From Oceanococcus sp. HetDA_MAG_MS8 (lineage in GTDB: Bacteria; Pseudomonadota; Gammaproteobacteria; Nevskiales; Oceanococcaceae), in assembly GCA_019192445.1 (NCBI GenBank), contig JAHCMK010000002.1, positions 62,001-126,000 on the forward strand: 64,000 nt of DNA. The letters are read 5' to 3'. Made by a program: the position numbers and the translations under genes. Under the pieces are notes generated by a model. That model saw only the letters and a program-made list of their open reading frames with translations, searched no databases and was not told where the DNA came from. Numbering within the stretch: the stretch's first letter is position 1; the number at the start of each line of letters is the position of its first letter. Below are positions 27,685 through 31,972 of this stretch, one piece after another.

Positions 27685-27976
27685 GGGCCAATGGCACCCA
27701 GAGGAATAGAGCCGTTTTTGGCCTGCGGCGCGGCGCGAGCGTGTCAAAGCGGAGGTTTGGCAGCGTGCAAAGGCTAGCCCCGGCCTAGCGGCCCACAAGA
27801 CCCAGTCAAAAGGGCCCAGTCCAAGCGCTTTGCAGCATAGTGGTGTCCTGGCCTGGGTCATAAGCAATAGCGCGCTTGCAGTCGACAACAAGGTTGCCCC
27901 CCTGTTCCAGCAGCTGGTTAAAACACGCAGCCACAGGCGGGCTAGAATGACGCGCCGTCCGCAAACCCAGAATCTC

Positions 27977-28921
27977 ATGAGTGCCGACTCCTCCAGCAGC
28001 TTTGTCAGCCGTATGCGCGCCAAGATCAACCGTGGTGACTCATGGTTGACCTACGACCTGGGCAACCTGCTACCGGGTCAACAGCTGGACGAAAACGCGC
28101 TAGAAGAATTCGAGGATTTACTACTCAGCGCTGACCTGGGCGTTGATGTCAGTCAAACCATCAGTGAAACCCTGCGCGCCGAGGTGAATGCCGGCCGCGT
28201 CAAGCGCGTGGACCAGCTTCAAAAGTTGCTACGCAAAACCTTGATTGACCTGCTCAAGCCCTGCGAGGAGCCGCTGGTCATCCATGACTTTATTAAGCCC
28301 TTTGTGCTCATGGGGGTCGGCGTCAATGGCGTTGGCAAGACCACAACATTGGGCAAGATTGCCGCGCAACTCGCCCAGCAAGGCCGCGAAGTGATGCTGG
28401 CCGCCGGCGACACTTATCGTGCAGGTGCGGTCAAGCAACTGGGGCAATGGGCCGAACGCGGCGGCGTAGCCCTGATGGAGCAAGGCCAAAACGCGGATCC
28501 CGCCAGCGTGATTTTTGATGCTTTTTCCGCAGCGAAGGCGCGCGGAGTCGATGTGTTGCTGGCGGATACTGCCGGTCGCTTACATACCCAAGGCGGGCTG
28601 ATGGATGAGCTGCGCAAAATTAAACGGGTACTGCAGAAACAAGAAGCCTACGCCCCTCATGAAGTGCTGTTGGTGGTGGACGCCACCAGTGGCCACAATG
28701 CTCTACAGCAAGCCATACAGTTCCATGAGGCCGTGGGCTTAACCGGACTGGCCATTACCAAACTGGACGGAACGGCGCGTGGGGGGACGGTGTTCGCCAT
28801 CGCCAAGCGCTTGGGCTTGCCCATCCGCTTTATCGGGGTGGGCGAACAGCTAGACGATCTCGGGCCTTTTCAAGCCGAGGCCTTTGTAGACGCGTTGCTC
28901 AGCGGCAATACCCCCAGCTGA
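27977..28921 (+). CDS. ftsY: Signal recognition particle receptor FtsY
   Basis: An SRP-GTPase that docks SRP-ribosome complexes at the inner membrane. 314 residues from the ATG at 27977. G1 is GVNGVGKTTTLGKIA, G3 DTAGRLHTQGGLMDEL, G4 ITKLDGTARGG and the closing loop is IGVGEQLDDLGPF. The long acidic N-terminal A domain of E. coli FtsY is absent; only the N and G domains remain, which is common in many bacteria. In-frame ATGs at 27947 and 27830 are possible but add low-complexity residues. It opens the ftsY-ftsE-ftsX block, with ftsE four bases downstream. Confidence 0.95.
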   Translation: MSADSSSSFVSRMRAKINRGDSWLTYDLGNLLPGQQLDENALEEFEDLLLSADLGVDVSQTISETLRAEVNAGRVKRVDQLQKLLRKTLIDLLKPCEEPLVIHDFIKPFVLMGVGVNGVGKTTTLGKIAAQLAQQGREVMLAAGDTYRAGAVKQLGQWAERGGVALMEQGQNADPASVIFDAFSAAKARGVDVLLADTAGRLHTQGGLMDELRKIKRVLQKQEAYAPHEVLLVVDATSGHNALQQAIQFHEAVGLTGLAITKLDGTARGGTVFAIAKRLGLPIRFIGVGEQLDDLGPFQAEAFVDALLSGNTPS

Positions 28922-28925
28922 GCGC

Positions 28926-29603
28926 ATGCCCGAGCTGCTCAGGATTCATAACCTACACAAGCGCTTTCCGCCCGGAGAGCGGGTGTTTCATGGTGCGCAA
29001 GCACAATTGGCCGAAGGCGAGTTTGTCTGGCTGACCGGGCCTTCTGGCGCCGGGAAAAGCACCCTGCTGAATATGATTGCCGGTGTGGAAACACCATCGC
29101 AGGGACACATCTTGGTGCAAGGCCAAGACATCACCAAGCTTAGCCGCCGCCAGCTGCTCGCTTACCGGCAACACCTGGGGCTCATTTTCCAAGACCCCAT
29201 GTTGCTTCCAGACCGCGACGTGTATCACAACATCGCCCTGAGCCTGGAAATCCGAGGCCGCATGCCGGCGGCGGAGCAAAAGCGCCGCGTTGATCGCGCC
29301 TTGGCGCATGTGGGCTTAAGTGGGCGCGGCCGGTCCATGCCCGCCCATTTGTCCGGCGGTGAGGCCGCCAGGGTCGCCATTGCCCGGGCCTTGGTAGCTG
29401 GGCCCCGTCTGGTATTGGCTGATGAGCCCACGGGGAACCTCGATGCGGCGCTGGCGAGAGACATTTTGCAGCTATTTGTGGCCATCAATGAGCTGGGGGT
29501 GAGCTTGGTCGTCGCCAGTCACGACGAAAACCTCATTGCCGAGTACCCCGCCACACGCTGGCGGATTCATGAGCACCAGCTACAGGTGGGGCCCAGCACA
29601 TGA
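28926..29603 (+). CDS. ftsE: Cell division ATP-binding protein FtsE
   Basis: The ATPase of the FtsEX complex, which couples the divisome to peptidoglycan hydrolase activation. 225 residues. Walker A is GPSGAGKSTLL, the ABC signature is LSGGEAARVAIARAL (standard LSGGQ has E here, as usual for FtsE), and Walker B is LVLADEPTGNLD. The Q-loop lies in LGLIFQDPMLLPDR. It overlaps ftsX by four bases. The sequence is regular for the family. Confidence 0.95.
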   Translation: MPELLRIHNLHKRFPPGERVFHGAQAQLAEGEFVWLTGPSGAGKSTLLNMIAGVETPSQGHILVQGQDITKLSRRQLLAYRQHLGLIFQDPMLLPDRDVYHNIALSLEIRGRMPAAEQKRRVDRALAHVGLSGRGRSMPAHLSGGEAARVAIARALVAGPRLVLADEPTGNLDAALARDILQLFVAINELGVSLVVASHDENLIAEYPATRWRIHEHQLQVGPST

Positions 29604-30460
29604 ACTGGCGGGCGGCACTGCAGCGCCAGGATGCAGCCGAGCTCATTAGCATTGTGGTGATGGCCTGCGCTGTTGCGCTACCGGCCTTGCTATGGCAGTT
29701 GCAGCACGCTCTTAGTCAGAGCCTGGAGCAGCGCGCCAGTGGTGCAGTCGTGCTGTTTTTGACAGCAGACGCCGTGGGTAGTCCAAAGCTAGTCAAGGAT
29801 TTGGAAGAACATCCCCTGGTGGCGCAGGTCCAGGCGCTGAGCGCCCAGCAGGCCGCCGCTTCTTTTGCGGATTTCTTGGGCCTCAGCGCCCAGGAACGGC
29901 GAGAACTTCCCGAGCAACTCGTGCCAGCTACGGTGTCGCTGCGCCTGCAGCCGCAGGCTGACCCAGATGCGGTGGAGCAAGCTATACAGGCCTGGCAAAG
30001 TCGCCCAGCTGTACAAAGCCTGTGGTGGGATCGTGCCAGCCTAGAGCGCGGTCAACAGCTGTACTTCAGTTTGCGTAACTTAGGCCGTGGCCTCACTTTG
30101 GTATTGCTGCTGGCAGGCGTGGGTATCGTTGCCGCCGATGTCAGTGCACGCCTGGCGCGTAGCGCTCAGCAAGTAGAGGTTCAGACGCTGTTAGGCGCCA
30201 GCGATGAATTCATCTTACGTCCTTATCTCAGCCGGGCGATGCTACTGGGCGGCATCGCAGGCGGCGTGAGCCTGGTGCTGCTCGGGCTTGGCATTGCCGG
30301 CCTGCAGGGAGTGCTCCAGGAGCTGTCGCAGAGCTGGGGCCAAACGGTGCAATTGCACTACCCATCCCCGTCCAGCAGCGTGCTTCTTCTGCTGGCTCCA
30401 GCGGTACTGTCTGCGCTCACCACGGTCGGGGTGGTACTCAGCCGCTTACAGAGCCGCTGA
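29600..30460 (+). CDS. ftsX: Cell division protein FtsX
   Basis: The membrane partner of FtsE. 286 residues with one N-terminal helix (about 18-38), a periplasmic loop of about 120 residues, and three C-terminal helices (about 160-185, 205-235, 255-280). The loop contacts murein-hydrolase activators. VQTLLGASDEFILRPYLSRAMLLGG is the cytoplasmic coupling segment in FtsX. It ends the ftsYEX block and is followed after about 330 bases by rpoH, the order found across gammaproteobacteria. The length and topology are typical. Confidence 0.93.
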   Translation: MNWRAALQRQDAAELISIVVMACAVALPALLWQLQHALSQSLEQRASGAVVLFLTADAVGSPKLVKDLEEHPLVAQVQALSAQQAAASFADFLGLSAQERRELPEQLVPATVSLRLQPQADPDAVEQAIQAWQSRPAVQSLWWDRASLERGQQLYFSLRNLGRGLTLVLLLAGVGIVAADVSARLARSAQQVEVQTLLGASDEFILRPYLSRAMLLGGIAGGVSLVLLGLGIAGLQGVLQELSQSWGQTVQLHYPSPSSSVLLLLAPAVLSALTTVGVVLSRLQSR

Positions 30461-30738
30461 TGTTTGAGCTACCGTGCTGATTGAGGTCTGCCCTTGCGTC
30501 GGCGTGAGCCACGCCGTGCACATCCCAGCAGACCAAGTTCAGCGGCTCGCCGCGCGAAGTTAGCGCGTCAGCATCCGCTTTAACCACTGCGCAGCCGCTG
30601 GGTGCTAAGCCCTGTCTGCGCGGACCAGGACTGCCCCACCCATTCCCAACAAAACGCTGAATAGCCCCGCCATATGGAGCTTTGAACATCGTTTCATCCG
30701 GGGAACTTTCCCGCATGTCGGCGCTCCAATGATCAGTT

Positions 30739-30765
30739 TTGGCACTCTCGGCCTGAGAGTGCTAA
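30739..30765. promoter_or_regulatory. CIRCE operator (HrcA-binding site) upstream of rpoH
   Basis: The sequence reads TTGGCACTC, nine bases, GAGTGCTAA. The consensus CIRCE element bound by the HrcA repressor is TTAGCACTC-N9-GAGTGCTAA, so 17 of 18 arm bases match and the right half is perfect. It lies 26 bases before the rpoH start codon. HrcA binding is inferred from the motif; the hrcA gene is not in this window. Confidence 0.88.
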
Positions 30766-30768
30766 ATT
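30739..30768 (+). promoter_or_regulatory. Sigma-70-type promoter overlapping the CIRCE element
   Basis: TTGGCA (30739-30744) as the -35 hexamer and TAAATT (30763-30768) as the -10 hexamer are 18 bases apart. Both hexamers fall within or at the edge of the CIRCE arms, so a bound repressor would block polymerase. Hexamer matches are partial (TTGACA/TATAAT consensus). Confidence 0.55.
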
Positions 30769-30790
30769 ACCGTTCATGGGAGATTCCACG

Positions 30791-31672
30791 ATGACAAATA
30801 CGCTCGCTGTGTACTCCAAGCAAGCCATGCCAGTGCCGCTGACCGGCAGTCTGGACGCCTACATTAGTTCGGTGAACCAAATCCCTGTGTTGGATGTGGA
30901 CACCGAGCAAGCCCTTGCGCACAACCTGCAGGACAATGACGACCTGCAAGCGGCGCAGGCCCTGATTTTGTCCAATCTGCGCCATGTGGTGCACATTGCA
31001 CGCGGTTATATGGGCTATGGCTTGCCGCTGGCTGACCTGATCCAAGAAGGCAATATTGGCCTGATGAAGGCCGTGAAGCGCTTCGATCCAGAAGTGGGTG
31101 TGCGCCTGATTTCCTTTGCTGTGCATTGGATTAAGGCGGAAATACACGAGTACATCCTGCGCAACTGGCGCATCGTTAAGATTGCGACCACCAAGGCGCA
31201 GCGCAAACTGTTCTTCAACCTCCGCAGTAAGAAGAAACGCTTGGGTTGGATGAATAAGGCCGAAGTCGAGGCGGTTGCGGCAGACCTGAATGTGAAGCCT
31301 GAGACCGTGCTGCAAATGGAACGGCGCTTATCCGGCCAAGACCTGGATTTCAGCAGTCTGGGTGGTAGCGGCGACTCCGAAGATGCACCGTATGCTCCAG
31401 AGGAATATTTAGCCGCTGAGGATCAAGATCCGGCCCCCGCTCTAGAATCAGCGGAGTGGGAAGACCAGCAAATGGCCACACTCAGCAGCGCTGTGCAAGC
31501 CTTGGATGCGCGCTCGCAAGACATTATTCGTCGCCGCTGGATGTACGCCGAGCAAAAAACTGGGCTGCAGGAACTTGCAGACGAGTATGGAGTATCCGCG
31601 GAGCGCATCCGGCAGATTGAGTCGGCTGCGATGAAGAAGATCCGCAAAGCCTTGGAAGACGTTCAGGGCTAA
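30791..31672 (+). CDS. rpoH: Heat-shock sigma factor RpoH (sigma-32)
   Basis: The alternative sigma factor that directs transcription of heat-shock genes. 293 residues from the ATG at 30791. The RpoH box QRKLFFNLR in region 2.4-3 is diagnostic. [22 protein letters not shown] is region 2.1-2.2, [18 protein letters not shown] region 2.3-2.4, and [21 protein letters not shown] is the region 4.2 helix-turn-helix. GGGAGA about eight bases upstream favours this ATG over one five codons earlier. It has its own CIRCE-controlled promoter and a strong terminator, so it is a single-gene unit after ftsX. Confidence 0.97.
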
Positions 31673-31692
31673 GCCGCACCCCTACTGAAAAA

Positions 31693-31717
31693 GGCGACCC
31701 TCGGGTCGCCTTTTTTT
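31693..31717 (+). terminator. Rho-independent terminator of rpoH
   Basis: An 8-bp stem GGCGACCC/GGGTCGCC (31693-31700 and 31703-31710) with a two-base loop is followed by seven T's. It lies about 20 bases after the rpoH stop. The A-run on the other side is short. Confidence 0.9.
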
Positions 31718-31972
31718 GTGGTCCTTCACAGCCTAGTGTCACTGAACAGAATGGGGGGCCGAACCTGCCACCATCTGGTCTACGCCACCCACCCTTGCCC
31801 AGAGCCAGACGTCACATGCTAACCAGCCCAGGTTTGGCGGGGAAAAAGTGGCGTCCAAGCCACCGGACAAAGACATGTCGTCTGGTCCCGCTGCTTCAGT
31901 ATCGAGGGCGACCGCATCTGGCTCCAAGAACCACGCCCTCAACACACCGCAGAGAGGGCCGCACTCGGGGAA
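31718..31972 (+). other. Spacer between rpoH and ctaB
   Basis: 255 bases between the rpoH terminator and the 3' end of ctaB. No gene, repeat or regulatory motif was recognised; the short frames present lack coding character. Confidence 0.5.

Follow-up and report, generated by a model that had tools for sequence, protein, structure and literature searches.

A predicted HrcA operator over the promoters of rpoH in Oceanococcus and other Gammaproteobacteria

The region upstream of rpoH in Oceanococcus sp. HetDA_MAG_MS8 contains a close match to CIRCE, the operator of the repressor HrcA, which encloses a sigma-70-type promoter and follows closely on a sigma-E-type promoter. We hold with high confidence, judging from sequence, that this operator is real, and it very probably functions in the repression of rpoH by HrcA. 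HrcA probably gates both the housekeeping and the envelope-stress transcription of the gene. Control of rpoH by HrcA, as proposed in the initial annotation, is supported by the position of the site, its conservation, the conserved promoter inside it and its co-occurrence with hrcA. The features are listed below; the window denotes the whole stretch of DNA that was analysed (64 kb), and coordinates refer to it.

27830..30460, + strand: ftsY, ftsE and ftsX, upstream of rpoH
30702..30708, + strand: -35 element of a sigma-E-type promoter, GGAACTT (exact), by sequence match
30725..30729, + strand: -10 element of the sigma-E-type promoter, TCCAA, 16 nt after the -35 element
30739..30765, no strand assigned: predicted CIRCE operator for HrcA, TTGGCACTC-N9-GAGTGCTAA, matching at 17 of 18 arm positions
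30739..30744, + strand: -35 element of a sigma-70-type promoter, TTGGCA, inside the left CIRCE arm
30763..30768, + strand: -10 element of the sigma-70-type promoter, TAAATT, overlapping the end of the right CIRCE arm
30778..30782, + strand: Shine-Dalgarno sequence of rpoH, GGGAG, read from the sequence
30791..31672, + strand: rpoH, encoding sigma-32 (293 amino acids), ATG at 30791
31690..31718, + strand: probable intrinsic terminator of rpoH, a GC-rich inverted repeat followed by a T run, identified by eye

The operator (full sequence TTGGCACTCTCGGCCTGAGAGTGCTAA, 30739-30765) is the sole match in the window to the consensus TTAGCACTC-N9-GAGTGCTAA when up to three mismatches are allowed. It deviates at a single position, A3 to G. 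No match occurred in 100 dinucleotide shuffles of the window, and none is expected by chance. The earlier count of 17 matching arm positions out of 18 stands. The span originally given for the site, 30739-30768, is correct for the operator as far as 30765, but its end takes in the -10 hexamer. A gap of 25 nt separates CIRCE from the ATG of rpoH. The downstream gene had been called sigma-32, and its product is indeed RpoH (NCBIfam TIGR02392, rpoH_proteo, 391.8 bits against a cut-off of 323.1). The gene order is ftsY-ftsE-ftsX-rpoH: ftsY scores above the cut-off of TIGR00064, ftsE was identified by its ABC-ATPase sequence and its position, and the frame at 29600 resembles FtsX models at scores below cut-off. 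A comparison of the rpoH region with Rfam yielded no RNA family above threshold.

The gene for the repressor, whose absence had been named as an objection to this wiring, is present. The genome encodes an HrcA (PF01628, E-value 1e-53; equivalog TIGR00331, 264.6 bits against a cut-off of 197.2) with the usual motif VGSK...SPATIR..LADLE..GLL...HTSAGRAPT in its N-terminal region. Just two CIRCE elements within three mismatches are found genome-wide, one at rpoH and one upstream of groES (C7:82686-82712, 2 mismatches). At groES, a near-consensus sigma-32 promoter, CTTGAAA-13-CCCCAA, stops 2 nt before the operator, and a near-perfect sigma-32 promoter for grpE, CTTGAAT-14-CCCCAT, lies within the end of hrcA (L003 2178-2204). 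The hrcA-grpE-dnaK locus (L003 1078-2208 and upstream; dnaK was assigned from its sequence) contains no CIRCE, HrcA apparently not repressing its own gene in this genome, and no good sigma-32 promoter was found upstream of hrcA. In contrast, G007, a genome of family f5, has a CIRCE close upstream of hrcA (C219:1533). The layout of promoters and operators predicts sigma-32 as the driver of groESL and grpE-dnaK, and groESL and rpoH as the targets of HrcA.

Conservation of the arms upstream of rpoH in relatives, the lack of which had also been named as an objection, was assessed in 61 genomes of the host's order by comparing the positions of RpoH and CIRCE and reading the loci. This order is probably Nevskiales, since L032, from the sister family f2, has an RpoH with 100% identity over 270 residues to the one in a Nevskiaceae bacterium record (L107). 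The operator is located directly upstream of rpoH in 36 of them, including a neighbour within the genus and a second genus of the family, both with diverged spacers. Throughout the order the core arms are invariant and the spacer is variable, in a search that allowed mismatches. All 36 genomes are among the 43 that harbor hrcA, compared to 0 of the 18 without it (p 4e-10). Seven of the 43 genomes have hrcA and no standard CIRCE at rpoH: one of these has no rpoH in its assembly, and another has a spacer of 8 nt rather than 9 nt between intact arms (L022, genome G050). Family f6 consists nearly entirely of genomes without hrcA; in the loci read, no CIRCE was found at rpoH or groES, and sigma-E-like promoters at rpoH and sigma-32 promoters at groES are retained. 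In family f4, three of four genomes have hrcA and there is a CIRCE-like site at groES and none at rpoH. Where CIRCE at rpoH has been lost in these two families (L008-L010, L027, L029, L034), the upstream sigma-E-like element GGAACTT-N16/17-TCNNA is kept with at most one mismatch. A further observation concerns family f2, whose groES operator (among the order's groES loci, L185-L214) is consistently degenerate, TTAGCAGCC...GAGTGCTAA, with 2-3 mismatches; operators at rpoH have on average 0.44 mismatches, a value conditioned by the search pattern. The difference suggests that HrcA control is tighter on rpoH than on groESL.

For the class as a whole, we searched with a joint pattern comprising the CIRCE core, 265-325 bases, and the RpoH region 2.2 motif. 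Gammaproteobacteria, in the taxonomy used, include the former Betaproteobacteria. The arrangement is found in 173 of 369 genomes and 134 of 272 genera, counts that are lower bounds because the joint pattern is strict; the reversed pattern, used as a control, gave 0 matches everywhere. Among the matches listed are Methylocaldum, Nitrosomonas communis, Variovorax, Acidovorax, Dyella, Alcanivorax, Pseudoalteromonas luteoviolacea and a Geobacteraceae record. In a sample of the phylum, 17 of 299 genomes match, all from the same class, with 0 matches in about 212 genomes from other classes. The gene hrcA is present in 268 of the 369 class genomes and in 160 of the 173 with the site, the remaining cells of the table being 13 (site without hrcA), 108 (hrcA without site) and 88 (neither); Fisher's test gives p 7e-17, which, like the other p-values here, is descriptive, as the genomes share ancestry and independence is overstated. 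The 108 hrcA-bearing genomes are those that do not match the strict pattern, and part of these missing sites is explained by its stringency, since known variants are missed. Together with the exceptions in the order, they indicate that the link between hrcA and CIRCE at rpoH is not obligatory. Incomplete genomes make up most of the 13 that have a site and no detected hrcA, but completeness reaches at least 96% in G153, G194 and G372; for these three, in which PF01628 finds no HrcA, relic operators, a diverged HrcA or assembly gaps are possible explanations.

The promoter TTGGCA/TAAATT had been described as enclosed by CIRCE, and its coordinates and 18-nt spacer agree with that description; its start is expected near 30775. 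Across 150 unique rpoH sites there is hardly any variation in the arms, in part because the search pattern demands it, and little constraint on the nine-base spacer. The three bases past the right arm lie outside the search pattern and finish a -10 hexamer, mostly TAAAAT, TAATAT or TAACAT. The overlapping sigma-70 promoter (TTAGCA-18-TAAaAT) is conserved at rpoH and absent from groES sites: a T at position 30 occurs in 140 of 148 rpoH sites versus 0 of 17 groES CIRCE sites. The embedded promoter is thus specific to rpoH and not a part of CIRCE itself.

The sigma-E-type promoter was recognized by the pattern GGAACTT-N15..17-TCNNA, with GGAACTT-N16-TCCAA found at 30702-30729. The exact GGAACTT also lies 16 nt before TCNNA in both other members of the family whose rpoH locus was read (L006, L007). 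The genome encodes an RpoE of the sigma-E subfamily (TIGR02939, 287 bits, cut-off 236); no sigma-32 promoter for rpoH itself is found upstream of the gene within three mismatches. In the class alignment GGAACTT occupies positions -15 to -9 before CIRCE. Of 148 sites, 84 have a -35 element that begins at -16 to -14 and differs from GGAACTT by no more than one base, compared to a mean of 0.7 and a maximum of 3 in shuffles of the upstream sequence alone, with the operator kept. The full pattern is found in 86 of 148 sites versus 1.4 in shuffles, its TC being supplied by CIRCE itself. With the -35 element about 15 bp before CIRCE and a spacing of 16 nt, the -10 element consists of the TC of the left CIRCE arm and spacer bases 10-12; sites that have the sigma-E -35 element tend to carry an A at spacer position 12 (p 4e-10). 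The originally proposed circuit is supported as regards the HrcA input, but sigma-E control as known from E. coli is not replaced, as a sigma-E promoter lies in the same stretch.

The location of this second promoter bears on how far repression reaches. HrcA might control the sigma-70 promoter alone, with the upstream sigma-E promoter escaping as an independent stress route to rpoH. In the family of the window the sigma-E -35 element lies at about -36 relative to CIRCE, so that the promoter is shifted upstream and its -10 element (30725-30729) is clear of the operator, and families without CIRCE have the sigma-E promoter standing alone. We nevertheless regard escape as unlikely: transcription is expected to start at about 30735-30737, which places CIRCE at about +3 to +30, within the footprint of RNA polymerase, and in other members of the class the -10 element of the sigma-E promoter is inside the CIRCE arm itself. 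Much less credible is that the inverted repeat works chiefly at the RNA level, forming a hairpin in the leader of the longer transcript from the sigma-E promoter, or that it is a promoter whose symmetry is incidental, rather than an HrcA operator. The repeat would be contained in the transcript from the upstream promoter, and CIRCE hairpins have been reported to affect mRNA stability in Bacillus; against this, it is the arm sequence and not pairing alone that is near-invariant in the 150 unique sites (partly imposed by the search), the arms are also kept in the order-wide search with mismatches, the site would be outside the sigma-70 transcript, and it is absent from all 18 genomes of the order without hrcA. 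A chance or relic match without present function, for which nothing speaks except the single arm mismatch, is scarcely conceivable in view of the empty shuffles, the retention of the site in the genus neighbour and the second genus despite spacer divergence, and its occurrence across the class.

Under the preferred reading, an HrcA operator acting on both promoters, HrcA folded with the help of GroEL/ES would occupy CIRCE in the unstressed cell and block the embedded sigma-70 promoter, as well as the sigma-E promoter, whose start point falls at the operator's upstream edge. The repressor would be lost once GroE is engaged by misfolded protein or heat unfolds HrcA itself, and rpoH would be transcribed; the sigma-32 made would then drive groESL and grpE-dnaK. 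HrcA would also repress groESL directly, where CIRCE abuts the sigma-32 promoter. Acting on groESL as well as on rpoH, HrcA would address both an activator and its target, a coherent feed-forward loop that would be closed by GroE restoring HrcA. The operator and promoter sequences, the repressor gene, the conservation and the co-occurrence are observed directly; the binding of HrcA, its dependence on GroE and the repression of both promoters at rpoH are modelled on other bacteria, in which GroE stimulates HrcA binding, and release by GroE titration or by unfolding has been reported for other HrcA proteins (PMC8533110).

Several known systems share parts of this arrangement. The HrcA/CIRCE regulon of Bacillus, Chlamydia, Helicobacter and Campylobacter (groESL, hrcA-grpE-dnaK) has the same repressor family, operator and modulation of HrcA by GroE; its targets are chaperone operons, whereas here one of the targets is the gene for the heat-shock sigma factor, and hrcA-grpE-dnaK is without CIRCE. 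In E. coli, rpoH is transcribed from sigma-70-type promoters and a sigma-E promoter (P3). The same holds for Pseudomonas aeruginosa (PMC9866376). In both species, unlike here, there is no HrcA and the promoters are separate rather than one being overlapped by an operator. Both RpoH and HrcA act on groE of Agrobacterium (Nakahigashi et al. 1999, cited in PMC11764788), as predicted here for groESL, but according to that citation they do so independently, while here HrcA is placed above RpoH. The wiring of HrcA to rpoH is not new in principle, as Rodionov et al. 2004 (Table 8; PMC545781) had already predicted a CIRCE ahead of rpoH in Geobacter sulfurreducens. There, the operator TTAGCACTC-N9-GAGTGCTAA lies upstream at -51 relative to the rpoH start codon, compared to -52 here, and groESL has a further CIRCE. 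G. sulfurreducens differs in being a delta-proteobacterium whose hrcA-grpE-dnaK-dnaJ also has a CIRCE; the prediction is computational, and the parts of the source consulted make no mention of an overlap with a sigma-E promoter. The papers searched contain no report of a class-wide CIRCE-rpoH arrangement or of the combined HrcA/sigma-E/sigma-70 layout; the survey of beta-, gamma- and epsilon-proteobacteria by Permina and Gelfand (2003/2004; doi 10.1159/000077248), the earlier work closest to this subject, may already include gammaproteobacterial cases of CIRCE at rpoH.

Textbook accounts present repression by HrcA and activation by sigma-32 as two heat-shock systems that are alternatives or run in parallel. 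In about half of the Gammaproteobacteria sampled, the repressor appears to stand above the sigma factor, at a spot shared with a sigma-E promoter. With an HrcA site in the rpoH promoter, usually beside a sigma-E promoter, heat-shock regulation appears to have a second, independent sensor that gates its main switch. There is an even chance that a single HrcA operator over sigma-E and sigma-70 promoters is the ancestral element of gammaproteobacterial rpoH, in which folding capacity, reported by GroE via HrcA, would veto the induction of sigma-32 by envelope stress, and that rpoH control of the E. coli type is derived, following loss of hrcA. Culturable species, for example of Dyella, Variovorax or a relative of Methylobacter, carry the same element. 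If HrcA does stand above sigma-32 in this way, three stress inputs would be combined in one short DNA element, and the wiring of E. coli would not be representative of its class.
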